Made by a program: the position numbers and the translations under genes. From positions 23,632,115 to 23,696,114 of the forward strand of contig NC_091947.1 in NCBI RefSeq assembly GCF_041260155.1: a stretch of DNA of 64,000 nt, written 5' to 3'. The stretch is from Ptychodera flava (Eukaryota > Hemichordata > Enteropneusta > Ptychoderidae). A model generated the notes under the pieces. That model was not told the DNA's origin. It made no database searches and worked only from the letters and a program-made list of their open reading frames with translations. The number at the start of each line of letters is the position of its first letter. Within the stretch, counting starts at the first letter, position 1. This document shows, in pieces, positions 25,001 to 54,700 of this stretch.

Positions 25001-28000
25001 AGTAATCAGTACCTGGAATACCTGAATTGTTAGAGTTATATACTAGGATGGCAAACTAAATTCAGAACAATTTCAAACTCAAATTTACTGAATCTCAAAT
25101 TCAAACCCAAATACAAGCAAAGTCAAAATATAATTCAATGCAAACCCAAACTTAAACTGAATTTCAAACTTTAATACAGAGTGATGAAATTTTTTTCCTT
25201 GAATTAATATAGACACCATGTCAATGTCACGAGACAGGACAGATACAAGCAGTCCAGCTAATCTGAATGTCCTGAGAATGGAGAGAATTCTAGCCAGTAA
25301 ATTATCAGAGTTTTTAGACAGTGATGTCCATTACAGTGTGAGAAAACTCCGATCTACTGAAGCTGCTCATCTCTATGCCTGTGCTGACAAACGTAAGTCT
25401 ACTTTAACAAAGGATTACCTGTGTGGCTGTTAAAGGGCGCCCTCAGTGGTCAATTTATCAAATCTTTCCAAGACGAAAATTTGAGAGGTACAGGACTAGT
25501 TATTTAGACCTGGGTTTCTGACAAGGGGCACAAATGAAATAGCTGGTTAAAAATGCTTCTATGTATATCTACAGAATTCATTACAAATAGACTAATTGAA
25601 TACTTTAAAAACACACAAAAGCAGTGATGGGCAAGCCAAAATCCAGGTAATTAATAATGAAATCCCATCACCATAAGTAGAGCGGATATGAGTATCTTGC
25701 TAACTCTCTATGAATGAATTTATTTTCAATGCCAAACTTTTAGGTTTTTTTAGTCCCAACGGACACCGTCCGGGGGGACTTATAGTTTGGTCATGTCCGT
25801 GCGTGTGTGCGTGCGTGCGTGCGTGCGTGCGTCCGTCCGTTCACGCAGATATCTCAGAGATGCCTGGAGCGATTTCATTCAAACTTGGTACAAGGATTAC
25901 TTCATATGTCATACAGATGCACGTCAATTTGTTTTTTGATACGATCCAATATGGCTGCCAGGCGGCTATTTTATTATGATTTTTTCATGTACAGAGCCAT
26001 AACTCAGACATGTTTCAACTGATTTTATTCAAAGCTGGTACAAGGACATTGACCAATGTCATAGATATGCACGTCAATTTTTCATGTGATATGATCCAAT
26101 ATGGCTGCCGTGCGACCATTTTTTACGATTTTTTCATGTACAGAGCCATAATTCAGGCAATCTCAACCGATTTTATTCAAACTTTGTACAAGGACATTGA
26201 CCTATGTCATACATATGCACATCGATTTGTTTTGTGATACGATCCAATATGGCCGACATGTGGCCATTTTATTACGATTTTTTCATGTCCTGAACTACAA
26301 CTCAGACATGTATCAAGCGAATTTATTCAAAAGTATTTTTATCACAGACCTAAAGAAGAGGACTCTATCCTCTCTGAGGACATGTAATCAAAGTACCCAT
26401 TAACAAGTGGGGACTGTGTCATCAACGATGACTTGTTCTCATTAAAATGAAATAAAAATATTTTTAACAAACCTTTAATCCACATTCTGATAAATGTGTA
26501 TTAAAAACATGAAGAGGAGTTCAGAATAGTAAAGAGATGTCGAATTTATATTTGATGAAAACAGATAAGACTGTCACCTGTGATTATAGAATATAATTTG
26601 TATCCTCAAGATTAAGAAATATGGAAATTGATTAAGGATAATTCAGAAGATGATTTATCTTTGTTCTGCTCTTTGTGTGATGTAAGAATTGAGTATCGGG
26701 ACTGTCACCCCTGGACAATTCCCCATCAACCATAGGATTAGTGCTATTCTCCTGTTGGTAAAATGTCCAGGGGGTGACTCTCCTAGATCCAAGAAATGTT
26801 GTACCACAATGTGGATAGCATGATGATGTATCAAGCTATATCAAGAATAATGCTAAATGTATCCAGATTGTCAGTCTATAAAAATTTCTGTTTATTTCCA
26901 ATTTTTGTCACTGCAGAGGAGGACAATTTACAAAGCCAAGCTGATATAAAGTTTTTCAAAGTTCAAAGTTCAGACAGCAGACCACACCCAACGAAAGGTG
27001 GCAATCAGGTTAATGAATACTTAACATATGGATGGTAAGTCAACGTTATTAACTCTATAAAAATCAGCTTTCATGAGAACTTTCAATGAATATGTTTCCT
27101 AACCACCATATATTCCCATTTGTACATTTCAAGAAGTACACCTCCCATAATGTGAAGTCTTTCTAGATTGTTTACACTTTTTCAACATCTATTCTTGTAT
27201 TAGGAAAATGTTTTCTCAAGTTTTTCTCAACAGAGGAAGAACATTTCCTTATCACTCTTGTAGTTCGCTGATGAATAAGTGTTCATGGAAACTCATAAAC
27301 CCTGAATGTAAAATAAGTGTTCTTGGAACAAAACTCATAAATTCTGAATGTGTGAATATTGGATAAATTTGAACAAAAGCAAAGTGGATTCAGAGAGACT
27401 AAGTCATTAAGTTCATTTGTAGAATATGTTTTAAACTTTTTCCATTTTCTGACCATAAAGTTGGTGCCAAAATTTTTAAATCTATTTTTTTTTTCACTCT
27501 CCCCGGGTATAATCACAAATCACTAAATTCATACTCATCAGTTAAGATGAAACACGTAGGGCAGATAAATCTTATTTTGAACAGTCTCCTCCTGAAAGTC
27601 AGTTTTGTCACTTCTTTGCAGTCTGTTAGATGAAGAGACAGCTAGCAAAATGGAAGGATTCAGCTCTGTGATCAGAAAACACTGGACATGTCCTACATGC
27701 AACAAGTCATTGATAGTAACAGTGCTGGAGAAGATACAACATGAAAGCCAGTGTGCAGGAGATACAGGTATGATGAAGGTCATAGTGCAGAGGTCATAGT
27801 TCAGAGTTCATCCTCAAATCTGACTTTCATTTCCATGTTCTGTCAGTGATATGCTTCATGATATGTTGGTATGAAGAGAGTGTGGATTTGAGGGGATTGG
27901 AGAGTTTTGTTGAATTTCTTAAAATATTGTAACTGTTTTAGCATGGAAGGCAGAGCTGAAAACTGTGGAAACAAAAAATGTCAAATATTACATTTGCTCC

Positions 28001-29257: not shown

Positions 29258-31387
29258 TTAGTTTTTTTCATTCTTTTCTGTCTGAACTTTCTTTCCTTTG
29301 TTGGTCTCTGTGTTTGACTGCCCAGTAGGACTCAGGTTACCGCCTTCCCACAGAGTGGGCTCCAAGTCCTGCAGAAATCGCTCAAACTGTGGCATACTGC
29401 TGATACTGTCCCCAGACTTGCTGGGTCGCAAGTTTCCATGGTTTCTCAGAGATCCACTGTCACTGTATTCTGAACTCTGCTCAGTTTCAAATTCAATGCC
29501 ATCTTGCAACTCCTCTTCGTAGAAATGCCCCATCATTGGATCGTCTTGATACATTTCTGGATAGGGACGTTTGCGACAGTCGCTTACGCCATAGACCATG
29601 GAGTCATCGTCACGGATCGACTCAGTAGCTCTGTAGAGTTCCTCCTCATCTATTGAGATTGGTCGGCCGCTGCCAGCCATCTGGTTTTTCTGCAGCCACT
29701 CTTCGATAAAACTGAAATCTTTGCCGTCTACACTTGGTTCATTGCAACTCATTTGCAGCTGTTGGCCATACTCAGTCATGACTACATTCGATGGGTTGTA
29801 CTTCGGGACAGGGCAGACCCTGACATCGTTTCTGGCGGTGAATGCTGGTGTACAAGACACAGGCAGGTTCAGCATCTGTGCCGTGCCAGATGGTGTGTTC
29901 ATGATTTGAGTGACATTGGGTGGCAATTTGTTGACTGAAGATTGCGTAATTAGGTATGCTTCCTTTGGATGTCCTTGATACCCGAGTGGCTGTTTTGGTA
30001 AAAAAAAAACAAAGACCAGGTCAAATAGTCTCCCCAAAAAAGAGTACATGGGAAATTTCAGATCAAGGGACAAATTTTTGAAGTTCAATTTTAATGACAT
30101 TTATTTGATAGCAAAAGCTATCAGAATTTCATTGTGTGCAAAAGAAATATAATGGTTTGTTTGTCAGCAAAAGCATAGCCCTGCACAGAGATACTGTGGC
30201 ATATTTCCACTTAATGATGTGGTATTCACCATTAAAATCGGACCGCCGAACACAACGCACTTTAAACTCGTTAAAACGTGATGCAGTAGGCCAGTCTGCA
30301 CTACGGTGGCAAAAAGATTTCGCTGAGCCACAGAAAAACGAAAGTGTATTGAATCTTACTGTTGGCGGCGCGCTCACATTTGCCGGTTGGATTAGTCTTA
30401 TCGTCTGTCCGTACACTCTCGGTTTCAGAACGTTTGTGCCAGGGTAGAATGCAGGTGAGGAAGGCGTCGCTTGTCCTTGTGGCTGGACTGGCCCTTGTAA
30501 TACAAAGAAAATCATAATAAAGTGGCTTTAGAGCATGCAGTTTGACTGAGTTGATTGCAGGTAAGTTTGAAAATAGTCCGCGTGAGCATACTTGCTTTGT
30601 ATGGTTTAAATTACCAAATTATTGACGCTAAAATTACCTTATTAAGATGTACGAGAGATAGATAGAAAGAGAGAGAGAGATTAATGGTTAAAAAGATGGA
30701 CACATGGGTAGAAATAGATAATGCAGTACCTATTCTGGTCATCGTTGAGGATGGCTGATTTCCGGCAAACCTCAAGCCTGTGGTTGCCATGGGAGCATAT
30801 CTGCCCGTTGTCATGGAGGCAGGATCAACACCACTGTAGGATATCGTGTTTTGATAATTCTGGATTCCAGTGCTTACAGTTGGTATACTCCTTTGGGTAA
30901 ACATGGGGTTCATCGGTATTAGAGTATTTAAGCGTCGTCTCTTAGGCGGCCTAGGTTGGTAAACCCATCCTGATTTGAAAAATAGACAAAAGTTCCCAAC
31001 GTAATTTGCCAAAAATTATTGATTATAAATCACACTTTAAAAAAAACCATCATGACTTAAAAAGATTCTGGATGGTATTGCAAACTGCAGCACATAAGCC
31101 GATTACATTCAACCGGATTCCGCGGCCAGAGTTCTTATCTCGTATTCTCACGATTCTTTGCAATGTACTGTCACAGCGATAACTTGGGTGCCAAACACGA
31201 CCCTCAACCACTGCACTTGAAGAAGATCGTTTCAAGTACTATACCAGGAAACACACATCCAATGCGTAATAAGTAGATTCTAGCCAACACTAAATTCCTC
31301 TGAGATATTTAGTGCTGACAATCTGTACATATGATAGAAGGCGCCACTAAATACCGTGCGCTGAGTGTACTTTATTTATTTATTCAT

Positions 31388-31426
<39 letters not shown>

Positions 31427-31630
31427 TTTTTCAAAAAATGCTTATTAAGTATTTTTCGTTCATGAAGAAGTTCCCTAAACATAAGATAGAGAACAATAGG
31501 GGGTGTCGTCGGAACTGCGCCTGTGCGCTTTTTGTTCACAAACAATGTATATTATGCACGATATTTGGATGCATCACGTCAACATAGCTCAATATTGCGC
31601 GTCATCATATTAACCCACTATGCAATTATT

Positions 31631-31686
<56 letters not shown>

Positions 31687-33005
31687 CATCTCAATCGCAT
31701 TTCTTTACCTGGGTGATCCTTTTTATGCTGGTCTTTAATCTTTTGAGCTTCCTCGTAGTATGGCTTCTTTGCATCGTTGCTCATACTGTTCCAAACCTCG
31801 CCAAGTTTAACACTGATTTCAGCGTTGTTAGCGCTTGGACATTGCTTGGCCAGAATTGGTCGATAGATGCGAGCCCACACCATGAAAGCATTCATTGGTC
31901 GCTTGATGTGGTTCGGATCATTGTTGCGTCGTCCGTAGTCTGAAATCGGATGTACAATTCATCATGAACAATACATAAATTGATGACATAAACTGTCAAC
32001 GTTCACCGTCATTTCTGATCATAGGTTTTTCTTCTGTCCGATCTTCAAGTTACATTCAAACATGAGTTTGTATAGCAATTGCACGTATCACTTTCAGAAA
32101 TTATTAGTTTGACGTAGCTCAACGGTTAACAGTGAACAGCACATCTTGGGACTGAAAGCAGAACGATTATCGTAATGCTGTAAAGTAACTGTGCATATTA
32201 TAGTAAAGCCTCAAGCTAATCCAACATTTCAGAATTTTTGATTTTCTTCAACTAGACTACTTTCAGATGAATTTTCTTTTGAAGGCATTAACTATTCGTA
32301 ATCAACTTAAATTTGTGCTATTTAATTTGTGTAATTAAAGACTTGCAATGAAATCAATGTTCTTTCTGTCTTATCTTACTAACCAAATTCACTTTCCTGC
32401 GATGAATTACTTTGTTGCATCGACACTTCGGAAGTTTTCGTCTCTGGAGTTCCCGCTGCCGACGACGTCAAGGGGGATACATCCACAGTTCGTAACCCGG
32501 TGTTGTTTAAGGTCGGACCGTGCAGCATTTTCATCGCTGTTGAAGTATACGTTGCAGTAGTAGTAGCTACTGTAGGTTTTTGCACGTGTCCGGATGATGT
32601 AGCAACGACGTGACTACCTTCTGCTGTGGTAGACGTAGGCAAGACCACTTTCATCGGAGTACCGGGAGGTAGCTGTCTCGTAGCAACAGAGCAAGGAGCT
32701 GTTGTCCTGACTATACTGTAATACATCGGCTCCGTGCATGTTGCTAAAGTTTTCACTTCGGCTATTTTCGGCATATCTGATTTGGAAGAAGCCAGAGGCA
32801 CGACTTGGATCTTGTCTGCCGATGTAAAACGCAGAGTGGCGAGATCTCCGCCGGCGAAAACTTTGCACGCAGCGTTGGTATCCGAGAGCGCATCTTTATT
32901 GTTGGCATGGGATGCTCTTTCGGTCTTGACGACGATCACGGATTTTGCTGCCTGCTCGCCATCCTCTTTTCTGATGACGCTGGTTGGTTTGGCTGTCTCT
33001 GACAT
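29258..33005 (-). CDS. SOX30: SoxH / SOX30 HMG-box transcription factor, five coding exons
   Basis: SOX30 (Sox group H) is a nuclear HMG-box DNA-binding protein, known in mammals as a regulator of male germ-cell genes. Exons on the minus strand: 32384-33005, 31709-31939, 30730-30969, 30360-30493, 29258-29989; phases agree throughout. The product is about 652 residues (human about 753). The HMG box starts near residue 219 ([18 protein letters not shown]) and continues through [14 protein letters not shown] and [12 protein letters not shown]. Exon 3 opens with [12 protein letters not shown] directly after the box; this PGWVYQPRP junction is diagnostic of SOX30 and lies at a splice site. The N-terminal 207 residues are Ser/Thr/Ala-rich; the C-terminus has an acidic Glu/Asp stretch ([20 protein letters not shown]). 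The start is the ATG at 33003-33005. The gene is convergent with DHX34 and divergent from Dmrt. Confidence 0.95.
31371..31430. repeat. (TTTA)n microsatellite
   Basis: About 15 units, one interrupted by a C. It lies in SOX30 intron 2. Confidence 0.95.
31635..31682. repeat. (GA)n microsatellite next to the HMG-box exon
   Basis: About 24 GA units on the plus strand, i.e. a (CT)n tract on the SOX30 sense strand starting 27 nt after the HMG exon ends (donor at 31707-31708). Confidence 0.95.
31709..31939 (-). CDS. SOX30: SOX30 exon 2: HMG box
   Basis: This exon carries essentially the whole DNA-binding domain. RPMNAFMVW, the group signature, is intact. It starts two bases into a codon and ends one base into the next (DHPG|WVYQP), leaving the domain in a single exon as in vertebrate SOX30. 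Confidence 0.95.
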
Positions 33006-33593
33006 CACTGAAGTTTATGTGTATTGTTGGGAGGATTTGGTCGACAAACCAAATAAAAGCTTCCCTGTGTCTCTGCCGCTTCCACGATGACAATGACACA
33101 AAAGATGGTGGAAATCCGAACAATCACTAGGGATCGTGTTCTGGAATTCGACGCAGAGTTCCATGCCATTGGCAATGATCTATGCGCGCAGGGTGAAGTA
33201 CGTCACCTGACTGTGGACACAGTGCACGCATAATGACGTGTACAGGGGCATGTAAACTGTTCCATAAGGTTTACAAGAATTAGCACAATAAATAAAACAT
33301 TAAAAATGAAACAACAATAACATAACACCATGGAACAAAAAATGTGACAGTACCAATGTTATTAAAGTTTCTCCAGACGCTGACGATTCCCTTTTAAAAT
33401 ACTCGGTAGTTCTCTGTTTTTATTTTTTCCCGTGAATTTTAAGCTTAGGCATACTCGCACACAAGGTGCGGTACCATGAGTGTTAGAAACTTGTCGGCCA
33501 AGACGCATGAAAGTTAGACATATGTAACACACAAAATTGTACCCTTCACAACTACAGACAAGACGAACTTCATTTGCACGTGTCCAGTGACAG
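33006..33593. promoter_or_regulatory. SOX30 upstream region
   Basis: Upstream of the SOX30 start on the minus strand; presumably holds its 5' UTR and core promoter. No TATA-like element at a convincing distance and no coding signal. CpG dinucleotides are common in the first 250 bp. Confidence 0.35.
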
Positions 33594-33752
33594 TTAAAGG
33601 GGCAGTCCTCAATCCCTGGTTCCGGATAAGTTCTTGTTGACAGTGAGTGCCTACATGGTGTTAGCCCTTTGTTTCCCCATTATAATTTTTATCAAGTTAG
33701 TCAATTTAATTTTTATAGATAAAAGTGATAAATGACTGACCTGCCCCTTTAA
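33594..33752. mobile_element. TTAA-target MITE, AGGGGCAG ends
   Basis: TTAA at 33594-33597 and 33749-33752; inverted ends AGGGGCAG and CTGCCCCT. 159 bp, non-coding. It sits in the region between SOX30 and Dmrt, adjoining copy 1 of an 81 bp duplicated segment. Confidence 0.75.
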
Positions 33753-33827
33753 TGAGAATCTTGAGAAGTACTTTCGATTTCCTTCATTCGGCGTTTGTCC
33801 TCATAAGGTGACGTTTTGTCTCAGTAT
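33747..33827. repeat. 81-bp direct repeat, copy 1
   Basis: About 90% identical to 35171-35251. Shared words: TTTAATGAGAATCTTGA, AGTACTTTCG, TTTGTCCTCATAA, GTGACGTTTTGTCTCAGTAT. Both copies have the same orientation. Confidence 0.85.
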
Positions 33828-35170
33828 GACTGTACAGGTGATGGGGCCGAAAATATAATCTAGAAAAAAATATCGGTAACTTTTAATTCCGCAGAAGACA
33901 GACTTTCGTGTACTGATTGAGCTACATTATGATTTTCCTTCAGTGGACTTATTCTCTTCGTTTAAAGTCAGATAAAGAATGTATTACTTTCTACCAATTT
34001 TACCTTCTGCAGTACCTTCACTTTCCAAAGAAGAATTCATCGGTACAAAACACGTTACACACAGAACATGGATTGCGCTATTCCGAAAAGTCACCTTATG
34101 TACAAAGTCACATGATGTACAAAGTCACATGATGTGCAGGCCAGATAAGGTTTTAGTATAGATCTACAAAATTTAAGATTTTGAATTCTTTGCTCTGTGT
34201 TTTGAACTATGCTCTAAATGTAATTAATTCTAAGGTGAATTTGAAAGCATTGATAAAAAAAATGTAGCCGTTCCCTACGATTTTTCCTCATAATGTAGTG
34301 TGATTTCCTCTGTAGGTAAGATGTTTTCCACACTATGTATAATAGTGTGATTTCCTCTATAGGTGCATTGAACCCCGATGAAAATTTCTCTTCTGAGAAA
34401 CTCAGTCGCTCATTTAAAGTGTAAAACAAATACAAACAAACAAACATGTCAAAACCTGACAGATTTCTCTAAAACAAATATTTGCCTCATCACTTTTACA
34501 CTTTGCTTAATCCCATAGCTTTCTTTTCAGGCCAACCTAGACGAAAAGTTCCCATATAGCTTGCACTAGGGCGGATAACTACTGAAATTTCAAGTGAGAA
34601 GGCTACCATTTTCGTTATTAAATTGCATGTGTTGTAAGTTACAGTAAATGGACAAGAACCCTCACCATGCTCTTTGAGATTCATCATCTGTCTATATCCT
34701 TTAATTTTACACAGCTGTAGGGCTTAGATCAGCTTTCAACAAAGAGGAGAGTTGATTCATACTGACGCATTGTCGATGTCTTACCCCCCCCCCCAGCGTA
34801 GATTTCTGAAACGTGCCTTGGCTTTCAAATGAACCAAAGTCCCTCCCGCACAGACTGCGGACGAACGAAAACGAAGAAACAAGTGCAGGATGTTTAGCAA
34901 GCAGTGAGGATTTGCATTTGCAATGTTACTTTTATCAAAAGTAAAAAGGCCAAGAGAATTTGTTTTCCGTTAATAAAAAAGGAGGTGAGAAACATCATGA
35001 AAAAAGGGAAATTGGCAAATCATAGGTCATGGGATATTTTCCATGAGGAATAGTACAAACACTGGTCTAGGATACATTCAACATAGCTCTGCGTGACAGG
35101 TATATGTGTTATGAACTGCTAATGAGTAACTAGTATTTGGCCAGGGCACAGTCCGTGTGGACATAGACCA
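33828..35170. other. SOX30-Dmrt intergenic, unique part
   Basis: No gene seen. Minor repeats: a doubled TACAAAGTCACATGATGT at 34097-34135, a doubled TAGTGTGATTTCCTCT at about 34287 and 34347, and an 11-C run at 34784-34794. Confidence 0.4.
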
Positions 35171-35251
35171 CTTTAATGAGAATCTTGAAAAGTACTTTCG
35201 GTTTCTTTCATGTGGCATTTGTCCTCATAAAGTGACGTTTTGTCTCAGTAT
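35171..35251. repeat. 81-bp direct repeat, copy 2
   Basis: Partner of 33747-33827, 1.4 kb away. A further tandem pair of about 36 bp (TAGTTAGGCTGTACTGAATT-like, then TTGCAGCGCATA) follows at 35264-35330. Confidence 0.8.
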
Positions 35252-35423
35252 CTTGTAATTAAGTTAGGCTGTGTTGAATTTTGCAGCGCATATGTATAGT
35301 TAGGCTGTACTGAATTTTGCAGCGCATACTTTGTTCTTTTCTGCAAATACTATCAACAACAACAACAATAATAACAACAACAAATTTACTGAGTCCAAAT
35401 ATATTTTTATTTTTCTTCATTAT

Positions 35424-35424
<1 letters not shown>

Positions 35425-35463
<39 letters not shown>
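35425..35463. repeat. (ATC)n microsatellite
   Basis: About 13 ATC units after an (AAC)n/(AAT)n-like stretch at 35352-35383. Confidence 0.95.
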
Positions 35464-36269
35464 GGAGACTGAGGACCCTATGGTTGAGTGTGTGGTGGCA
35501 TGGCTGTGAGCATTGTATACTACGTATAACGGTATAGGCCTACCCTTCCACCACGACCGGTGATAACACACATCCCCGCCATGCAAAGCTATGAGGAATG
35601 TGTGGATGATGAGTACTAAATCCTGTATTTTTCCTTTTCCTCATGGAAACCTCCGTCGATCGATCACCATGCCACACGGCTATATTTCTGGGCGTGCATA
35701 AAATTTTCCACCGGACTTTGTCAACGGTTGACCTTGCTCCGTTGCATGGATTGTCATGCTAATACATTTATCTCAATGAATATCAATTTCAAATAAGCTT
35801 TCCGTTGAAAATCCGATCGACAAACGTTCCCACGTTGTCGTGAATTGATTAAATGTGATATCCCAACAGTATGGTTCTTCGTTCCTTTGATTGCATGAAG
35901 ATTTAATCATGCTCGTTGCATTTCCCTCTTCCCTGCTACTTCCGTTAACTTACCCGTCTCCTCTGTTTTTGTCTCCAAGGTCAGGTTGACCGTTGATCAT
36001 CGCCAAATGGTGAGCAAGATCGCGACCGCAATGCCCCTAAGCCCTCCCAATTTTTTTCTTGTCAGACGGTATCCCGATTTTTATATCTTTAGTTTACCGT
36101 AGATACGTACAAAGACGCACGACCGACATCACTTACCCGCCTGTAGGTTTAGTTGGCTTAAAATCAGAAAACGATTAAAATGAAAATTGATAAACGGAAC
36201 ACGAAAATCAAATCAAATTTAAACAATAACGCAATTTACAATTTTACCATGGAGGGCATTGGGGTTCAT

Positions 36270-36316
36270 CTAGCCATGGATGTAAAAAAATTTTTTTTTT
36301 TACATCCATGATCTAG
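36270..36316. repeat. Small inverted repeat (A/T-cored hairpin)
   Basis: Left arm CTAGCCATGGATGTAAAAAA, right arm TTTTTTACATCCATGATCTAG, virtually no loop. Ten bases separate it from the larger hairpin to its right. Confidence 0.85.
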
Positions 36317-36325
36317 CTGCAATAA

Positions 36326-36447
36326 TTGTAGCCTTGGTTGGCCATGGGGATTGGGCTTCTGTCGTGCGGCTCGCGCCTTGCCCCAACAAAGGCAAGGCGC
36401 GAGCATCACGACAGAAGCCCAATCCCCACGGCCAACCAAGGTTACAA
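36326..36447. repeat. 57-bp near-perfect inverted repeat (long hairpin)
   Basis: Arms 36326-36382 and 36391-36447 around the 8-base loop CCAACAAA, with four mismatches in 57 by eye. The sequence is GC-rich (GGGGATTGGGCTTCTGTCG, GCTCGCGCCTTGCC) in AT-rich surroundings. It could be a recent inverted duplication, a structured RNA or a foldback relic. No flanking target duplication seen. Confidence 0.9.
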
Positions 36448-38025
36448 CCTGTACGCTGCGTTGGAGTATCTGCCGGATGGCTCCGGCGTTGTCTCCAAAG
36501 AAATTACATTCCAAGAGGATAACGCCGCGCTTGTACATTGTGACAAACAACCAAGAAAAGATAAAAACACATTAAAAACATCGTTCAATGCATAGTCTAC
36601 TGCTAGGGTTTGTTCACGTATCACAACATGCAACACCCCGATGTCGGGTCGACCGTCCCATACTTTGAATCGCATGCGATACGCGTTGCGGCATGCGATA
36701 CCATACCATTCAAAGTCTCCATATACATGATGTACGTACGTGCGTGTATGTGTTGCTACAATGTGTCCGAAGTACCTGTGTCCTTTTTGGAAAGAAAAGT
36801 GTTCATGAGTCACGTGAGTCTAGTGAAGGTGGACCCTGGACATGCAGGAAGTACACGCCTTAAATTTACATATGAATAGAGATGATAGAAATACTTCCCC
36901 TGGATTGGTCAAAAGTTTACGAATAATTTTATTGACACCAATAATATTGGCTACAAACCGATTCATTTCTGGAAATCTCCAAACGGCGCCAGTAGACAGT
37001 CAGACGCCCTATAGCTGGAGCGAGGTGTAACCGTCAACCAAATTTTGACAGATTGTGGCAAAAGTTTCTGTGAAACCGTCAAGGAAATCCCCGTTACTGC
37101 ACTCGATATTCAAAGTCTGGTCAGTATCTCATTGAGTCTGCGTTTTACACACAAATATTGTGATTAGTGTTACATGCAATCTAAAGATTTACACCGAAGG
37201 TTTTACGCGCTAAAACTTGAACGGCGATACCGACTTCAAATAGCTGACATTGGCAACGCGATATGCCGATAGTCTGGACAGACTATCGTTCAAATCATGT
37301 CAAGACCTGAAGTCTCATCGAGAATCATATTTTACCAAATAATGTCAACATCTAAAGTGTTTGATGATTATCTGTCAGAACGCTCATCGGATGTCGTATG
37401 GAAATTGAAAGTTTTAAAGCCATCGTGAAGTCTTTTTTGATAAAAATCGTGGAAAATCATTTTATGAATGTTGCAAGAGCAAAACTGATCGGTGTCGAGC
37501 TTTAATGTTTAAGTGCCCACGAAAAGATACATGTACTAAGTTGTTGAATCATTCTGATTCATATCCAGATATTTGTCACAAAATTCGATCCAAATGTTTA
37601 CCTTTTGTAAGTTTCTTTTTTCAAATTAATGCTTCCAACTTTCTGTTCCTAAAGGCTAAACATTTGCCAAACGCTGCCAATTTTCGTGCGTCAACACCTC
37701 TGTGTACTACAATGGTCCCTTTCGCCAACCTATAGCAATTCTGTCTTCTTTTCTGAATTCATTTCCCGTCCGACAACTCCAGGAATTTCGTTGGTGATTT
37801 TGAGGATGTCCGCGACACCAACGCTACGTAGGTAGTACGTGCAAAGCCGCAGTGTCCTGAGTTAAAAGTGACAAAGACAAGCTTTAGGTGTAGTAGTAGT
37901 ACCTGCCGCCGCACCGACGCAAGTCTGCTACCTGGTACCATTGCAGAGAACTTCTACAATGCCTTGGTAACCAAAGGGTTGATTTACACACCTAGCGTTG
38001 TTTTTATCGCAATTTTCTTCGCAGG
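36448..38025. other. Dmrt upstream region
   Basis: No gene recognised. A frame at 36338-36595 ends in a protein-like stretch (GYNLYAALEYLPDGSGVV) but begins inside the hairpin and matches nothing I know. A DMRT-site-like word lies at 36753-36767. CpG dinucleotides are frequent near 36460-36760. Confidence 0.4.
36753..36767. promoter_or_regulatory. Candidate DMRT binding site
   Basis: TTGCTACAATGTGTC resembles the published DMRT consensus (core TACAWTGT preceded by TTG). It lies 1.3 kb upstream of the Dmrt start and 3.7 kb upstream of SOX30. A single match of this kind can occur by chance. Confidence 0.3.
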
Positions 38026-38032
38026 TATAAAA
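38026..38032 (+). promoter_or_regulatory. Candidate TATA box of Dmrt
   Basis: TATAAAA, 46 bases before the Dmrt ATG at 38078. This spacing would give a 5' UTR of only about 20 bases. Alternatively, the CTTCGCAG immediately before it could be the acceptor of a 5' UTR exon. Confidence 0.35.
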
Positions 38033-38077
38033 ACTCTCTCAAATACTTGAATATTTTAATATCATAAAGATCAATGT

Positions 38078-38238
38078 ATGAAGAGGATGGATGAAGAGGT
38101 GTACGTGTACAAGACGATCAAAGTCAAATCTCCAACATGTGCAAGATGTCGAAATCACGGTGTGATTGTCTTGCTAAAAGGCCACAAGAGAGAATGTCCC
38201 TACAGGTTCTGTGAATGCCAAAATTGCTCCTTGATCGG
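38078..38238 (+). CDS. Dmrt exon 1: zinc-binding part of the DM domain
   Basis: The first ATG at 38074 runs into a stop within six codons. The ATG at 38078 ([20 protein letters not shown]) opens the DM domain. The exon ends GG|GTAAG in phase 2 and joins 40216, reading [14 protein letters not shown] where most DM proteins have LI(A/V)ERQRVMAAQVA. Confidence 0.9.
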
Positions 38239-41200
38239 GTAAGTTCTAGATCTTAGTATGGAACTTGGTATGGATGAAGTTTTAATTCTTATAATTTAGT
38301 ATTGCAATTTGTTGAAAAGCTAGTGATATTCTGTGCATTTGAAGGCGCGTGTAAAATTAGACATCGAAAAAACTCAATTTTGCCGTCTGCATTGCTCCTT
38401 GCTCACAAGCACACCATTGCACCGTTTGTTAGGTTTGCAACTGTCACAACAAAGAAGTCAGTATTTCATCCAGAGAGGGGATGGGGGATTCCCCCACTGT
38501 TGACATTTCGGCACCCCCAAGTAATTTGTCAAGGGGGGACCAGCCTCCTTGAAATGGTGCCAGTCACGCCTTAGAGATACAAGTACAGAACACATGAACT
38601 GGTGAAATCCCCCTAAATTTTCTGTTAAAGGGGAATTCCATCTTTTGATGCCATCCTGGATGAAACACTGCCGTCTTCCGACTTGTTGATGGGATTTTGC
38701 AATTGTAAAATCACAGCATTCTGTTCATAGTTTGCTCCATGTAGCATTATATGTACATTGTAATATATGACATCAAATCGATTCCAGCAATCATTATCAT
38801 TCAAGGCAAATAAATTACCAGGTCCAATAAACAGTAAAAACAAACACACAAAGAAACATAAGATCACTGACAAAATCGGTAGTACAATCTTGAATCACTA
38901 TATAAGTGGTGGTACCAGGTGTCCGGAATGGGTAAGCGTACCCTGCTAGCATGCTACACCCGTCAAGATTGAACTAGTGTGACAAAGTTATTGTACGGTA
39001 ATTCAGCTATCTGCTAAATTACTGTTCTGAGTCAAAGTCGGGAATACTGTCTTTCATCATCTGAGTGACAGATTTGCCATATTTAGATATAAGATCTCCA
39101 TATCTACATAGAACTTCTTAAAAGATCTAACCAACTACTTTGTGAAAATCCTTGTCTCACCAGCTTTAAGACTAATAAGCTGTGTCTCTCTTGAAAATCT
39201 CCATATGAATCACAAGCTCTACAGTATCTCAGTAGTTGTGAAATGTACACACCATAAGCTGGACTCGACGGAATATTACTGGTCAAGTAGGGAAAGTTAA
39301 TGATTTCAAAATTAAAATCATCCCTTTTATCATACAACTTGGTGTGTATTGCATTGTGTCTAATTTCAATAAATAGATCAAGATACGATGCTGAGTTCAT
39401 GCTCTCCGTTGTTTCTTTAATTTCTAATTCATCTGGATATATGTGATGGAGGTAATTAGAAATTCCAGGATTGTTCAAACTGATGAGATCATCAATATAT
39501 CTATAGGTATTATTAAAGGACTTTGCAACTCTTTTAGATCCTGAACTATGAGTACATTGTAACTAATGTTACTTTTTCGGTCAAAATTTACAGAAGTCTT
39601 GCACTGGCATAGATACTGACATCTTGTGGATATATTTTCAATGGTATATGGAATAATTATTTGCAAGCATATTCTGTTGAAGTTTTGATTAACCCTTCGA
39701 GTGCTGTTTTTTCCACCAAAATTTTATTGCCACATTTTACCAACTTTTTATAAATTTTTCTGAATTTTTTGGATAATTTTGGACCAAATGGACATCATAC
39801 TCCATTGCTACAGTTTTTTATCAGAATTTTGGCAAAAATCTGAGGAAAATTGACTAGGGTATACTTTATAAAGGCGAGAAAAATTGACGGCGCACAATGG
39901 GTTAAATACATATTAGCCTTTCACTTGTGAATATTAGTTTTTCATCTGAATGAATACTTGCATGAGAAAAATGTTATTGTATGTGTGCTGACCTAAATTC
40001 CCAGCTTAAAATTAACATCAATTTAGCATGAAAAACTATGTGTCTTGCCTCTATGCCTCAGTCCACACCTAGGTTGTACATTGATGTGTGGTAGCAATAT
40101 ATGACTATCAGTATTGGGACGGTGGTACAAGAGGAATTGAATGTTGAGAATTTTAAACTTTAGAATAACTGGCAAATAGCAAAATGGAGTTTCACATTAC
40201 TCTTTTCAAAAAAAGGGAACGAAGAAGGATTATGGCTGCTCAGGTTGCAATCCGTCGGCAACAAGAATCACAAAAGAGACAACTGACATCCAAGTCCAAA
40301 TCAGAACCTTACATTCATCCGAGACCGATCAAGAAGAAGAAAACATCAGAGTCAGGTATTATTGGTTGTCAAATGTTTGTGCTTCCTGTCAAACTGGCAA
40401 TGAAAATGAAAATGTTGAAATTTGTATCCAGTCTTATCTACCAATGTTTTTCTATCACATAATTATTTAAAGTGTCTTCAGGTCTTCACAATATGTAAAC
40501 TGTTCTCTGACATCTACAAAAATTACAATTGAGAATGAACATTTGATGTCACTTTTGTGTTCAGTGATTTTAATATCATATGACATATGGGCTGGTACTG
40601 CCAAACAAATGTGGTGCAAGTATTTTGAGGGAGTAAAAGAAATGTTAAGAAAAATTAGAATTAGTTGAGAAAAATGAAACGTCGCTCTCACTTTTGTATT
40701 TAACAATTTTAATATGGGATGGTAGTTCTTTCCAAACATGACACAAATATCATGGGGGAGAAATCAGTGCTTGAAAGACAACACGTTAAAATTGTTCTGA
40801 GGAGGCAACTACCGACTTAGCTCAATCAAATGTTTGCACTGCCCCTCAGGCATTGTGACATCGCTCAGTGTAGTTTATATTCAGCTCATCAGTTCCAACT
40901 ATGAAGCAGTGACTGACATTGATAAACAGTAGCCATAAATTAACCCTTTGAGTGCTGTAATTTTTTCCCACCAAAATTTGAGTGCAACATCTTACCAATT
41001 TAAGAAATTTTCTGTAAATTTTTTGATAAATTTGGACCAAATTGACATAAAATTTCATTGGCTACAGTTTTTTATCAAAATTTTGGCAAAAATCTGAAAA
41101 AAAATTGTAAAGGCGACAAAAATTGACTGGCACTCAGTAAAAATACACAATGCACTGAAGACAAACTAGGTGATTTGATAATACTCTGCAATATTTAAGT

Positions 41201-44200
41201 ACATGTAGATTTAGTTTATTGTACATTGAACATAGAAAGATCCATATCTGATCATCAGACGTTAACTTTTGTGTGTCTGTGTTTCTATCAGAACACTCTA
41301 GCCATGGGGAAATTTTCTTGCCATCGACATCAGATGTGAAGAAGACAGTACTGCCGAAGACACCTGCATGTACAAGTGGATTGAATTCTTTGACAACTGA
41401 CATTTGTTATGACCCATCCACTAGCACAATAGATACAGACAGTGTAAGTAGACTCTATTGTTTCAAAAACCATGTCCCATTGTTTCAATACAAAGGACAC
41501 ACTTAATTGTTGCCAAGTCCCATTCACCTTCCTCCAGCACAAAAAATAAAAACTTTCACAAAACTGTAGATGTGCACTCATGCATGCATAGTTGTGAGCA
41601 TTGACTTTATATATAAACAGAACTTTTACAAAATGTGAATTAAAAATTTCTCATTATTTCATGATTGCATGCTTTTCTTTGTTTGAATTATGGAAGATTG
41701 TTTTGATAAACACTGTATAAGCACTATGTTTCTGAAGCTGTCTGAGATATATTTTGTCAAGCTCAGTATGTATAGAGTTAGCGTGGAGATATGGTGTAGA
41801 TCTGTACATTAGGTAAAGGATAGAGTGTAAACAAGGAAAGAGATTCAAAGAGCTATCTAGATGGAGAAAAATTATTGCATCAAATTTCGATGTTTTGAAT
41901 GATCAAATATTAGCAAAAGGAAAAAACTGTATATTGTCTTGACAAGACAATGGAAGCAGCAACAAGTGAACTTTTCTCTGTCCAGTGAATTTGGGATCTT
42001 GAATTCAAGAACAACACAAATAATAAATAACTGCATGTTTTTCTTTTTTTTTAATTATGGAAGATGGCTTTGATAAACATTGCACTACCATATGTCTAAA
42101 GCCATCTGTATTTTGTGAACCTTGGTGTGTATATTGTTAGTTTGAAGATAGAGTAATAATTAAATCTGTGCAAAAAAATTAATAATTTAATCTGTACATG
42201 CCGTGACAAGAGTGTGAGGAAAGTCAAAGGAAAGTACAATGTCCTCTGATTTTCTTGACAGGACAACAGAGGAAGCAACAAGTAAACTTTTCACCAACCA
42301 GAAAATCTATCAGTGAATTTGTGATCTTGAAAGCCCAAACCATACTAATAATAAATATTCTTTCTTGACAAATTCATCAGTACGTAATAACACTACAACA
42401 AATAATTGTGTATGAGTATAGGGGACTGAGGGGCAATGCGATGTAAAAGTTGTTGCGGCAGATTTCCTAAAATCTATTTTCAAAAAGTACTCCAAAATCA
42501 GGGACAGAGGAAGTTGTGATTCTGAGACAATTTATCTGATCTAATAAATATTTTATTGTTTTTTTTTTGTTTTAGAAAACAAATACATTCTCTTTTTGTA
42601 AATTTTCTAATTTTACAAGGTTTTATATGAAAGGGACAGTAGCTTCAATTTTTGACAAATTATCATTGTTTTGTCCAAGGAAACATGTCTTTTGTCTTCC
42701 AAGGTATTCTGGAATACAAAGTATTAAGCTCATGACAACTACACTCTGTGTAATGTAATGTTGTTACTGACTGATCGATGAATTCCTGTCCGGAATAATT
42801 ACTTCTCCAACAGTAACATTAGGTTTTACACGCATACAGGCTGTTTTAATTAAGTTGAATACTTGGCATTGAAAGTGGCTTTGGGAGTAGAACAAGCTAC
42901 TATGTAAACAAAAGGAACTGAGATAATGACAAATAGATCAAAAGTTACAGTCAATGGAGCTATTAAGATGTCTGTCTCACCACTGATAGTTTCCTGGCCA
43001 GCTTCATCACCTCAATCAAGTCACCAATCAAGGCAAGAAAGTGAACCCAAGTACTGCTGCATACAACTGGTCTCCAAGTCAAACTAACCTTGCTCAGCTT
43101 GCCTGTATTTTCCCGGAACACAGTCCTGAAATACTGCAGCGAGTTTTAGGTAATCAAGCTACTGTTACCTATGCTCACACAAAAGTTTGAATATCAAAGC
43201 ATTATTTCAATCTTATTATGCTGAATTGATTACTCTGTTTCAGTTATACTTGGACATTAAGTGGTTTTGTGCAAAAACAAAATTGTTACACTATCGTGTA
43301 TGATTTTATCAGATGTATGTTTTGCATTTTTTTGTGAATAGAATTAGAAGCTCATAAAAGTAACAAAAAATAGTCCACAGTAATGTTAGAATAAATGGGT
43401 TGAGAAATTGAAACTCTGGAACAAATATGCTCCTTGCATTCACAGATGACTGACAAGAGCGCCCTCAAGTGACAGTACTTCAAGTACACTGTGGAACTAT
43501 TCTTTCATCTACAAAGTTTGAAATTGCAGGCAGAGAGTTACTTTTGCTTCTTTTCTTTGTTTCTTTCCTACAGATTTTTACTCTAATGATGTATCCCGAG
43601 CCATAGCATTGCTGCTATCAGGCAACCCTTCGGTACTGCAGGGGTTCTACTCACAGCAACCACCGACTGCCAGTGCTGCAGCCATTATTCCAGGGACTGC
43701 TCAAGTACTGAAACCAATACCAATGCCACCAACCACTGGTTTTATCAACCTCTCCCAGCTGGCTAACTCGCATGTGAACACGACAAGTGCTGGGTACTCC
43801 CCTCTGCAGAATCCTGTACAGTTATCAACGTCTGGTTGTAACTTTGTGACATCTCCGAACACAAACATCCAGCAGGTAAAAATGAGTGTTTTAAAGGCAT
43901 AGTAGTGGGGACACTTGTTGAGCAGTGTATCATCATTAATGCACAATTTCTGGCCATTTCAATATTCTCCATTGATAATTCATCAATGACTCAATGGTTG
44001 ATTCATACTCAAACAATGCTCATTCATATACTTTGCATAAATGAATATATTTATCCAGGAAATTTAGCATGTAAAAATTGTACATGATGTTGATGATATG
44101 GTCCTCTGGAAAACTCACTTTTAAAGGAAAAGCATTTATACAGGTGTATAGCAAAGACATGAACATTAAAAGAAAAAGAATTACCAATGTCACTTCAAGT

Positions 44201-45029
44201 TCCACTGCATGTATTACTTTTGCAGCAATACAGTCATCTACAGCCAGTGGCTCCAAAGTGTGGATACACCAGTAGAAATTTTTCTTTTTGTGGTGGATTA
44301 CCAACAAACACACCAGGAGTTGTTGTACCTGCGGTATTTCCGAGTCAGGCTATGAGCCCCACTGGTCAAAGTGCTGTAACAACCTGCCACTTGGAACCCA
44401 CGCAGCCTTGTATGCGAAGTCCTTGCTTTAACAGTAAAGAGTGTCAACCAGACGGTGTTCATGATGCAGAAACAAAGTCAGGTAAGGCTTTGCCAATTAA
44501 AAAAGGGTAAGATCTTCATCTGACTAGGTCACGGGTAAAAAAGTTGTAAAATTGATAAGATTTGCATGACAGTTAAAAAACAGTATAGTCTGACTTGGGA
44601 TTGGTAATTTAACAGCTGGTGTTATTGTATGCGTTTATTTATTGCTAAAGCTGTGCAGTTGTTGAACAAAGTATGCTCACAATGTGCAATTTTATACAAG
44701 CATTTACTGGTATATTCTAGTACAGTATATGTGTTTAGATATGTGCAAGGTCTGCAACAGATTTTTTCTGTAAAAAAAATCATTTTTTACAGTTCACCCC
44801 TAATTGAACAGAATGTACACGGGACCTGCTCTCAAAGATTCAAGATGAAGATGTTTGATTATTTTTCTTCTACACAGGAGATGTTCACCATCACACAGCA
44901 GCTGCCCATGCTTTGGTGTCCTTGGGTTCATCACCAAGCTCCAAGGCAACCACTGTTAGCAACTTGGGTGATGAGATTGATCAGGATGTCATGGAAACCA
45001 TTCCCATATCCGACCTGGAGAAGTTCTAG
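38078..45029 (+). CDS. Dmrt transcription factor with DM and DMA domains, seven coding exons
   Basis: DM-domain factors bind DNA in the minor groove and control sexual development and neural patterning. Exons: 38078-38238, 40216-40355, 41292-41443, 42990-43149, 43574-43875, 44226-44481, 44878-45029; all phases agree, giving about 440 residues. The DM domain (about residues 20-75) reads [20 protein letters not shown], then [15 protein letters not shown] and [16 protein letters not shown], with all zinc-binding Cys/His kept. The centre of the finger module ([20 protein letters not shown]) differs from the usual wording of DMRT1-5. A DMA-like helical domain spans the 43149/43574 junction ([20 protein letters not shown], then [17 protein letters not shown]). 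DM plus DMA points to the DMRT3/4/5/93B side rather than DMRT1/2; the subgroup is unresolved. Introns hold a reverse-transcriptase fossil and TTAA MITEs. Confidence 0.92.
38765..39046. repeat. 282-bp dispersed repeat, copy 1, with tRNA-Ser-like core
   Basis: Nearly identical to 47662-47942 (two substitutions and one single-base indel seen by eye). Both start ATATGACATCAAATCG and end AAAGTCGGGAATA. At 38911-38980 lies a tRNA-like segment: an A-box-like GTCCGGAATGGGTAAGCG, a GCTA anticodon-loop-like stretch and a B-box-like AAGATTGAACT, resembling tRNA-Ser(GCT). The tRNA-like part is internal, unlike most SINEs. It lies in Dmrt intron 1. Confidence 0.75.
39104..39666 (-). mobile_element. Reverse-transcriptase retroelement fossil (family uncertain, possibly Penelope-like)
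   Basis: The minus strand shows an RT palm signature ([12 protein letters not shown]) followed by [28 protein letters not shown] and [16 protein letters not shown], a tail wording found in many marine-invertebrate RT elements. Only the C-terminal part of the RT remains, and the copy is broken. I cannot assign the family from this fragment; a Penelope-like origin is a guess. It lies in Dmrt intron 1, antisense to the gene. Confidence 0.65.
39689..39905. mobile_element. TTAA-target MITE (piggyBac-like ends), copy 2
   Basis: TTAACCCTTCGAGTGCTG at the left and CGCACAATGGGTTAA at the right; 217 bp between TTAA sites. Same interior as 7565-7803 and 40940-41137. Confidence 0.7.
40940..41137. mobile_element. 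TTAA-target MITE (piggyBac-like ends), copy 3
   Basis: TTAACCCTTTGAGTGCTG at the left; the right end is eroded after GACAAAAATTGACTGGCAC. It lies in Dmrt intron 2, just before the exon at 41292. Confidence 0.65.
42990..43875 (+). other. DMA domain of Dmrt, split over two exons
   Basis: [20 protein letters not shown] ends exon 4 (42990-43149), and [20 protein letters not shown] starts exon 5 (43574-43875). The pattern (hydrophobic-L..IFP....E.L...L......V..AI..LL) is that of the ubiquitin-associated-like DMA module found in some DMRT proteins. The rest of exon 5 is Pro/Thr/Ser/Gln-rich. Confidence 0.75.
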
Positions 45030-47661: not shown

Positions 47662-47942
47662 ATATGACATCAAATCGATTCCAGCAATCATTATCATTCA
47701 AGGCAAATAAATTACCAGGTCCAATAAACAGTAAAAACAAACACACAAAGAAACATAAGGTCACTGACAAAATCGGTAGTACAATCTTGAACCACTATAT
47801 AAGTGGTGGTACCAGGTGTCCGAATGGGTAAGCGTACCCTGCTAGCATGCTACACCCGTCAAGATTGAACTAGTGTGACAAAGTTATTGTACGGTAATTC
47901 AGCTATCTGCTAAATTACTGTTCTGAGTCAAAGTCGGGAATA
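47662..47942. repeat. 282-bp dispersed repeat, copy 2, with tRNA-Ser-like core
   Basis: Same orientation as 38765-39046 and about 99% identical. The tRNA-like part is at about 47809-47878. A short direct match (GTAA) is possible at the borders but is too short to trust. Confidence 0.75.
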
Positions 47943-51766: not shown

Positions 51767-54700
51767 CTATTTTTTCTTCTTCAATTTAGCTCGTGCTTGC
51801 TTCAGCAGCATGTCAAAGTCCAGGTTGCTGGCTGGATCATTCCCGTCAGCTTGTGAACCCTTGCCACTTCCATCTGCAAAAGATAAATTATATAGTAATC
51901 TATCAGACTTAACCTACTAATGATAGCAGTCTTTCTACTGTAACTACCATATTCACCCGAGTATAAGACCAACCCAAATTTCAGGGGAATTCTGAAATGC
52001 TATACATCCCTGACAAGACCTTGCCCTAGTTTAGCTCAAATAAGCGATTCAAAAATTGATGATAGTGTGACTTTAACAGTTCAAGATATTTGAAGTTGTG
52101 GCTGACTGACTGATGGATTTGAAAGCATCTCTTCCAGGCTGTATTTCACTGTGATTTCACCCATGCTAGTTGTACTGGTCTGTCGAGGTTGTTCAAAACC
52201 ATTGTGTACTCTGTGTACATCTCGGATAGTTCTTATGGAAAGACTATTTGTTGCAAGGGGTGTGTAAACATCAGAAAGGTGAAGTGAATAACTATAGAGG
52301 GTAACATTATTTTTAAAGAATAAAGAAACTATTATAAATGTTAATATAATGCAATATTGATATTCATACGGTAGGATCACAAGGAAAAACATGTTTTTCG
52401 GATAATTTTGATTATGTAACCCTCTGTGGCCCCTGCTCCAATGCTGAACAGTCTTACTCATAATGGCCATATTTGGTTTCTATCTCCAATTTAAAGATGT
52501 TTTGCTTGCAATTTCATTCATTTGCAGCAATCTGATTTCATTCATTTGCAGCGACCTACTTTCAATTTCATTTATTTACAGTGATCTACTCAAAATTTCA
52601 TTATTTACAATGATTTACTCAATTTCGTTGATTTGCAATGATCTACTCACAATTTCATTGATTTGCAGTGATCTAACTCACAAATTTCATTGATTTGCAG
52701 TGATCTAACTCGCAATTTCATTGATTTGCAACAATCTAACTAATTTCATTTATTTACAGCGATCTACTCACAAAGTCATGGATTTGCAGCCATCTGCTGA
52801 AAATTTCATGGATTTGCAACGATCTACTCACAATTTCATTGATTTGCAGTGATCTAACTCACAAATTTCATTGATTTGCAGTGATCTAACTCGCAATTTC
52901 ATTGATTTGCAGCGATCTACTCAAAGTCATGGATTTGCAGCCATCTACTGAAAATTTCATGGATTTGCAACAATCTACTAGCAATTTCATTGATTTGCAG
53001 CGATCTACTCACAAAGTCATGGATTTGCAGCCATCTACTGAAAATTTCATTCATTTGCAACAATCTACAAGCAATTTCATTGATTTGCAGTGATTACTTT
53101 TTCCCTTTGTAACTTACAATTCTGGCTAGTCACAATCACTTATTTCACAGTTATATACTTTTTTCAACTGACAGTGACAATTTGATCTTGGAAAGGTTAG
53201 CTGCTTTTCTACGTGCAGTAAATGTATGTTCACAGCATGTTTGTCTGTACAGTGATGCCAATCAGCTGTAAACATGACTGTTTTGTTTTCATTGCTCTCC
53301 GTATTTAAGAATAATTTCAAGTTACAATTTCAAAACACAATCAAGTATTTTTGTCATCTTCTGACGTATAGATTTTTCAAAGTCATTGAAAATTGAAACA
53401 GAAATTGACAGAAAGCACAAGGTTGCTCGATTATGTGCCCCCTTTAATTATACCCCTGTTCCGTGTCACCCAACCTGGGGTAGAATAATCGAATGAATAT
53501 GGTATATATGTAATTTCTAAATGGTGACACAAACACACATCCATACCTAAATCAGCATAGGCAGTTTTACAGAAATGCCGTCTTCCTCCAAAGCATAGGT
53601 CATAAGGTTGATCAACTGAATTAGAGTTCCCTTCTGAAACGGCAACAACATATTTCTATTATTTTTTGAGTGAGTTCATTGTAATTTCCTTGTTTGAAAT
53701 CCATTCATATATCATTGATGACACGGAGGAAATCATAAGACATGTAATTTGCATGTAACTGAGAATTCATGCATGGCAACCAGAGTGCTTGGACAATCCT
53801 TGCGTTCAACAACCATGTGTACAGAAGTTTTTTTACACCATTTCACCTCCAATACGCTTTGGCTTTTAGAGTCTTTTTCACCAGAAAAATCAGCTTGGCT
53901 TAAAAGCAGAATCATCTCCTGCAGAAACACCCTAAACACAAAGCTGCAACAATTTATCTCCTTAGAAAGATGCAGTTTTGAAAGTCAGCTTGCAAGTCCA
54001 ATGTTACTAAAATGAATTCTTTGATGATAAAATGGTATCTTTCAGAATCTCCAGATAGAATTGACAATGCATTGTGCATTGTCACATTTTCAGAGTCCAC
54101 AGCCTACATGCATATACTTAAGCCCGGGGCGAAATGGACCGGGATCCGGATTAATGCCAAGTTTGGGTGGGCGTTTTGGGGCATGGCTCTGCATAATGAG
54201 TCTGTTGGTAACGGTTGCTATCGTTCGCATTATCTGCGTAATCTGTTTGCTCTCAACTCACGCTCTGACTATAAGCTTAGGTACAGCCTTTGCAATACGC
54301 GAAAGAAAAAAGAAAGAAGGAAAAAATATCAATTTCCTAAAAACAGGAGCGTGTTGAGTTGATGTACTGAAGTTTTGCTGAGTTGATTCACTGAAGTTCT
54401 GGGTCATCGTTCGAGAATGATTCTGCTACTGACCGCCATATCTACATACGGAATTGGCGCCGTACGTAGTACGCGTAGTGGAAATAATCATCAAGAAAAA
54501 ACATTAAAAATAATCCGAAGCTGGTAATTTCGTATGTTGAAATCACGAATTACTGATCTAAACATTGACTGAGAAACACGGTCAGGAAAATGGTAGGAAA
54601 CAGGTGAACGACGCGACGTCATGACCGATCGCTAAAATAGAAAAATAAGTTCACTACATCACGGAAGGATCGAGATTTCCATGAATCTCGCGTACCACGA

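Follow-up and report, generated by a model that had tools for sequence, protein, structure and literature searches.

A SoxH (SOX30) gene and a Dmrt gene are divergent neighbours in the hemichordate Ptychodera flava. Here we describe the gene structure, domains, orientation, spacing and CpG profile of the pair in a 64-kb stretch of DNA (the whole stretch that was analysed, hereafter the window), which is gap-free (zero N). SOX30 is encoded on the minus strand and Dmrt on the plus strand, and the region between the two start codons (33006–38077) is 5,072 bp in length from ATG to ATG. We consider that these are probably two ordinary transcription-factor genes with separate promoters, in an adjacency to which we assign no age; this reading is compatible both with an ancestral linkage and with a lineage-specific rearrangement. 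If the pair is conserved or co-regulated, it would provide a physical basis for the male pathway that has been proposed for SoxH and Dmrt, and a single small region in which to test it. If it is neither, the locus is an unremarkable one in which members of two known families happen to adjoin.

The SOX30 model runs from 33005 to 29258 on the minus strand and has 5 coding exons that encode 652 amino acids. Exon 1 (32384–33005) begins with the start codon at 33005 and ends at the donor GTTAGTAA; exon 2 (31709–31939) encodes the HMG box; exon 3 (30730–30969) carries the GWVYQPRP tail that follows the HMG box, as in SOX30 7jjk; and exons 4 (30360–30493) and 5 (29258–29989, with the stop codon) complete the gene. 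The Dmrt model runs from 38078 to 45029 on the plus strand, with 7 coding exons and 436 amino acids. The first part of the DM domain is encoded by exon 1 (38078–38238) and its end by exon 2 (40216–40355). After exon 3 (41292–41443), a CUE/DMA-like domain starts in exon 4 (43002–43149; an alternative in-frame acceptor lies 36 bp on) and ends in exon 5 (43574–43875), and exons 6 (44226–44481) and 7 (44878–45029, with the stop codon) follow. Splice sites of both predicted models were picked by eye from the sequence; all 10 inferred introns are GT–AG and the reading frame is kept across every exon junction. On these models, the coordinates, orientations and order given by an earlier sequence-only reading of the window, with SOX30 starting leftward at 33005 and Dmrt starting rightward at 38078, are exact. 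The context of the Dmrt start codon at 38078 is poor, and an out-of-frame ATG precedes it at 38074; the context of an in-frame ATG at 38087 is better. A TATAAAA motif read by eye on the plus strand (38026–38032), 46 bp upstream of the Dmrt ATG and directly after the acceptor-like TTCTTCGCAG, is a possible core promoter only.

The identities that the same reading had given to the two genes, SOX30 and Dmrt, were also right. The SOX30 protein matches the Pfam HMG_box family (1.2e-23), and the best match of its HMG box in the PDB is SOX30 (7jjk), with 107 bits versus 80 bits for the best SOX9 chain. An SRY/HMGB1 fusion (2gzk) reaches 104 bits, but as the sum of two stretches, the best single one of which scores 55. 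Identities over the HMG box are 48/70 for SOX30, 36/70 for SOX9, 30/70 for SOX2 and 28/70 for SRY, in a pairwise comparison (no tree) that covers only proteins with PDB entries; within it, the box is nearer to SOX30 than to the other Sox proteins compared. Splicing of exon 2 to exon 3 restores the tail PGWVYQPRP, which is present in 7jjk. The SOX9, SOX2 and SRY chains compared lack this tail, which we take to be diagnostic of SOX30. Outside the HMG box, the SOX30 protein gave no Pfam match at an E value of 0.01. The five coding exons compare with five exons reported for mammalian Sox30 (PMC4232546). As in relatives, the protein is probably a male-germline HMG-box factor. A search for relatives of the HMG exon among viral contigs produced 95 pattern matches, none of which was confirmed.

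The Dmrt gene encodes an N-terminal DM domain (Pfam PF00751, 1.1e-22; DMRT1 4yj0 in the PDB, 4.7e-19), through which the protein probably binds DNA. The domain is divergent, with 29/46 identities to DMRT1 and 26/46 to Dsx (letters from PDB alignments). Against provisional sequences of six human paralogues, the count is 33/46 for DMRTC2 (DMRT7), the nearest of the eight DM domains compared, and 25–30 for the others. Kinship with DMRT7 is a lead only, as it rests on these provisional sequences and on pairwise counts, and we did not adopt it; DMRT7 is regarded as confined to mammals and reptiles (PMC6737965). In the middle of the protein, a CUE match (residues 182–218; 3.9e-5; 23.7 bits, above the Pfam cut-off of 21.1) overlaps a DMA match (residues 183–211; 5.7e-4; 19.8 bits, below the cut-off of 23). 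DMA domains are described as CUE-like and ubiquitin-binding (PMC7538159), and the two matches therefore describe one domain. Ubiquitin binding and an effect on stability have been reported for C. elegans DMD-4, and binding for human DMRT3 (PMC7538159); by analogy, ubiquitin binding through the CUE-like domain may tune the stability of the window Dmrt.

A DMA domain is annotated in most bivalve Dmrt3 and Dmrt4/5 genes (PMC12530298) and is present in DMD-4 (PMC7538159), which has been grouped with Dmrt93B (PMC6737965). The window Dmrt resembles these types (Dmrt3, Dmrt4/5 and Dmrt93B/DMD-4) in combining an N-terminal DM domain with a mid-protein CUE/DMA-like domain. It differs from them in that its DMA match is below the cut-off and its CUE match above, in its divergent DM domain, and in the lack of another Dmrt in the window: tblastn with the SOX30 and Dmrt proteins as queries (E up to 1) found no second DM or HMG gene in the 64 kb. 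The dmrt4/5 neighbour that is typical of Dmrt93B is thus lacking from the window. Echinoderm Dsx-like and starfish-specific Dmrt classes, which the source does not name in its Dmrt2/3/4 clusters (PMC10175285), are comparable by description only, the window Dmrt being likewise alone in 64 kb.

This solitude bears on how the pair arose. A lineage-specific rearrangement could have placed a Dmrt beside SoxH, such as a dmrt93B that had moved or a duplicate that had diverged, and we regard this as a possible history, although not the one that we would expect. It would account for a DM domain as divergent as this one and for the absence of a second DM domain in the window, given that dmrt93B adjoins dmrt4/5 in Saccoglossus and Branchiostoma (PMC6737965). 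However, that adjacency is not strict, the two genes being on different scaffolds in the sea urchin (PMC6737965). In addition, any class given to the window Dmrt is provisional, and a 64-kb window may be too short to contain its cluster.

The sequence-only reading had further claimed that no other gene lies between the pair, and this was borne out for domain-bearing frames: nine open frames of 80 or more amino acids lie in or overlap 33006–38077, and all of them lack a Pfam match at the cut-off, as does one from Dmrt intron 1. We rejected a hidden gene in the gap on this basis, although exons smaller than these frames could still be there. A codon-usage scan did not separate coding from non-coding sequence, as scores of the best windows were 0.12–0.52 for 12 known exons (2 of which scored best on the wrong strand), from below 0 to 0.43 for six non-coding controls and up to 0.54 for windows in the gap. 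A FLYWCH finger in the open frame at 37418–37732 was also rejected (E value of 0.11, below the cut-off; nothing relevant in the PDB for the first 63 residues). The weakly FLYWCH-like part of this frame (37418–37608) is followed by a GTAAGT donor-like site, and may be due to chance or be an old remnant. No repeat in the gap recurs elsewhere in the window at an E value of 1e-3, and the gap contains only short internal repeats and inverted pairs. One of its features is a near-perfect hairpin (36326–36447; 57-nt arms, 93% complementary, 8-nt loop) that has no Rfam match at the gathering score; a search of the whole window against Rfam at gathering scores likewise gave no match.

Binding motifs in the gap were counted using provisional definitions (the DMRT core ACAWTGT, its 8-base form, AACAAW, ACAATG and WWCAAWG). 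The DMRT core occurs 4 times versus 3.4 in shuffled sequences (two palindromic sites, both strands counted) and its 8-base form 4 times versus 1.5, a count that was reached by 61 of 300 shuffles. For the remaining motifs, the counts are 17 versus 16.9 (AACAAW), 7 versus 5.2 (ACAATG; 83 of 300 shuffles) and 19 versus 11.2 (WWCAAWG; 4 of 300 shuffles). The last of these lies within the range of 7–22 found in 12 equally long tiles across the window (two of them include part of the gap). The motif counts in the gap are thus ordinary for the window, with no enrichment that is specific to the gap.

Divergently paired genes are described as having less than 1,000 bp between their transcription starts, with synchrony that falls with distance (PMC12672016). 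SOX30 and Dmrt share the head-to-head arrangement of pairs with bidirectional promoters, but their spacing, which is measured between ATGs rather than transcription starts, is around five times the 1-kb limit of the class. The pair therefore does not fit this class unless transcription begins well upstream of the ATGs. As enhancers can act over 5 kb, the distance speaks only against the narrow model of a shared promoter.

Loss of CpG is a record of germline methylation. We profiled CpG content by two-state segmentation, in 400-bp windows and in 500-bp bins. The ratio of observed to expected CpG is close to 1 across most of SOX30 (0.62–1.08 in 500-bp bins, 30.0–33.0 kb) and 0.33–0.69 over its last exon; the segmentation places the gene in five CpG-rich pieces (29310–33904) that are spaced 112–273 bp apart. 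A CpG-poorer dip (33905–35456, from the segmentation and the 400-bp windows) lies between these pieces and a CpG-rich block over the 5′ end of Dmrt (35457–38671 in the segmentation; ratio of 0.96). The dip is shallow, with ratios of 0.42–0.66 at about 34.0–35.4 kb, and holds one CpG-rich piece of 137 bp (34751–34887), flanked by CpG-poor stretches of 846 bp on the SOX30 side and 569 bp on the Dmrt side. Past exon 1, the body of Dmrt is CpG-poor (0.15–0.49, 38.5–45.0 kb), as is much of the window. The segmentation is imperfect in that it labels as CpG-rich a 232-bp piece at Dmrt exon 5 (0.27) and the last exon of SOX30 (0.56).

The gene-body CpG levels of SOX30 versus Dmrt suggest unlike germline methylation histories, in which most of SOX30 and the 5′ end of Dmrt stayed unmethylated and the body of Dmrt did not. 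As evidence of two promoters the profile is weak, because the dip is shallow and a piece with a ratio of 0.27 is labelled CpG-rich; the dip could be the poorer middle of one CpG domain. On the reading that we favour, each gene most likely has its own promoter, that of SOX30 in the CpG-rich stretch that ends near 33.9 kb and that of Dmrt in the CpG-rich block at 35.5–38.7 kb, and the 5-kb gap is ordinary intergenic DNA in which enhancers of SOX30 or Dmrt may lie. The shallow dip, the imperfect segmentation and the chance that the transcription starts are closer than the ATGs speak against separate promoters. The evidence against a shared promoter is mild.

The sequence-only reading had raised the possibility of shared regulation or of a small sex-related cluster. 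No feature of the sequence demonstrates joint control, and such a link would draw on expression in relatives. SoxH expression is reported to be testis-specific in two sea cucumbers, Apostichopus and Holothuria (PMC11218330), to be confined to the testis in the oyster (PMC4232546) and to rise in Ciona spermatocytes (PMC9776925), and a Dmrt named Dmrt1 is more highly expressed in testis than in ovary in Apostichopus (PMC9894652). The oyster study includes the speculation that a testis Dmrt is a target of SoxH (PMC4232546), and work on bivalves favours SoxH and Dmrt alike as male determinants (PMC12530298). The two families of the proposed bivalve Dmrt-1L/SoxH pathway, which are suggested to act jointly in males, are those found here (PMC12530298, PMC4232546). 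However, the parts of these reports that describe the pathway do not state that the genes are neighbours. Dmrt-1L is regarded there as restricted to molluscs, and the oyster CgDsx, a male-biased testis Dmrt, is described as having no recognisable domain beyond DM (PMC12530298, PMC4232546).

From such observations, it could be argued that both genes are switched on in the male germline or gonad by enhancers in the gap, and that selection keeps the neighbourhood. We consider this unlikely, even though it draws on the testis expression of both families in relatives and on the lack of an intervening domain-bearing frame among the nine searched. The CpG-rich regions of the two genes are separate and their gene-body CpG levels are unlike, the genes are 5 kb apart, and the gap has no motif enrichment of its own. 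Furthermore, the Dmrt types that carry a DMA domain (Dmrt3, Dmrt4/5 and Dmrt93B) are reported to function in neurogenesis (PMC6737965), and the male-biased CgDsx has no such second domain (PMC4232546); the window Dmrt and the testis-enriched sea cucumber gene are candidate orthologues only. Of 11 echinoderms surveyed, only the sea cucumbers and starfish were reported to have SoxH itself (PMC11218330), and the pair can therefore not be general in that phylum. The window Dmrt may act in the gonad or in neurons, a neural role being as possible as co-expression with SoxH. Both families are linked to the testis in several relatives, which fits co-expression and counts against the reading of two separately promoted genes. 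An old, selected male-germline module, in which enhancers in the gap serve SoxH and Dmrt jointly and the lineage uses this Dmrt, perhaps a relative of DMRT7, as its germline Dmrt, is in our view very improbable.

Among the literature matches listed, we found no report of SoxH–Dmrt linkage; one may exist elsewhere. An ancestral linkage without function, in which slow gene-order change in this lineage left SoxH and Dmrt as neighbours, seems doubtful. Other pairs that involve Dmrt genes have stayed together: dmrt2 adjoins dmrt3 in deuterostomes, and dmrt4/5 adjoins dmrt93B in two species each of deuterostomes and molluscs (PMC6737965). On the other side, SOX30 lies near THG1L and ADAM19 in five vertebrates (PMC3004900), and neither was recognised in the window, in which open frames were read by eye with no whole-window family search. 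The chance that a Dmrt is one of the two neighbours of SOX30 is approximately 2.7e-4 to 8e-4, assuming 4–6 Dmrt genes among 15,000–30,000 genes. This figure overstates the surprise, because the pairing was chosen post hoc as ‘sex-related’.

Both flanking genes converge on the pair. To the left, a rightward DEAH-box helicase converges on SOX30; one of its exons matches DEAH helicases in the PDB (1.2e-20), with Pfam HA2_N above and DEAD below the cut-off, and by its motifs it is a putative DHX34. Related tandem arrays of an approximately 150-bp repeat occur at 11427–12119, between two helicase exons, and at 25870–26331, near or beyond the 3′ end of the helicase. To the right, an RRM gene on the minus strand (53550–59276) converges on Dmrt. 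Its RRM is split over exons and scores 24.5 bits for one exon alone and 38.0 bits for the joined piece (cut-off of 20.7), and in the PDB it matches other RRM proteins. By its motifs this gene, which has a DHDYCQ stretch, is putatively PGC-1-like. A CpG-rich, non-repetitive block of 1.8 kb (54106–55951; ratio of observed to expected CpG of 1.18) seems to lie inside it. Within Dmrt intron 1, a minus-strand open frame (39104–39562) has the look of a reverse-transcriptase fragment by eye, with nothing in Pfam at the cut-off. A stretch of the same intron (38820–38930) reads by eye like one downstream of Dmrt (about 47733–47828), and the two are probably copies of a dispersed repeat.
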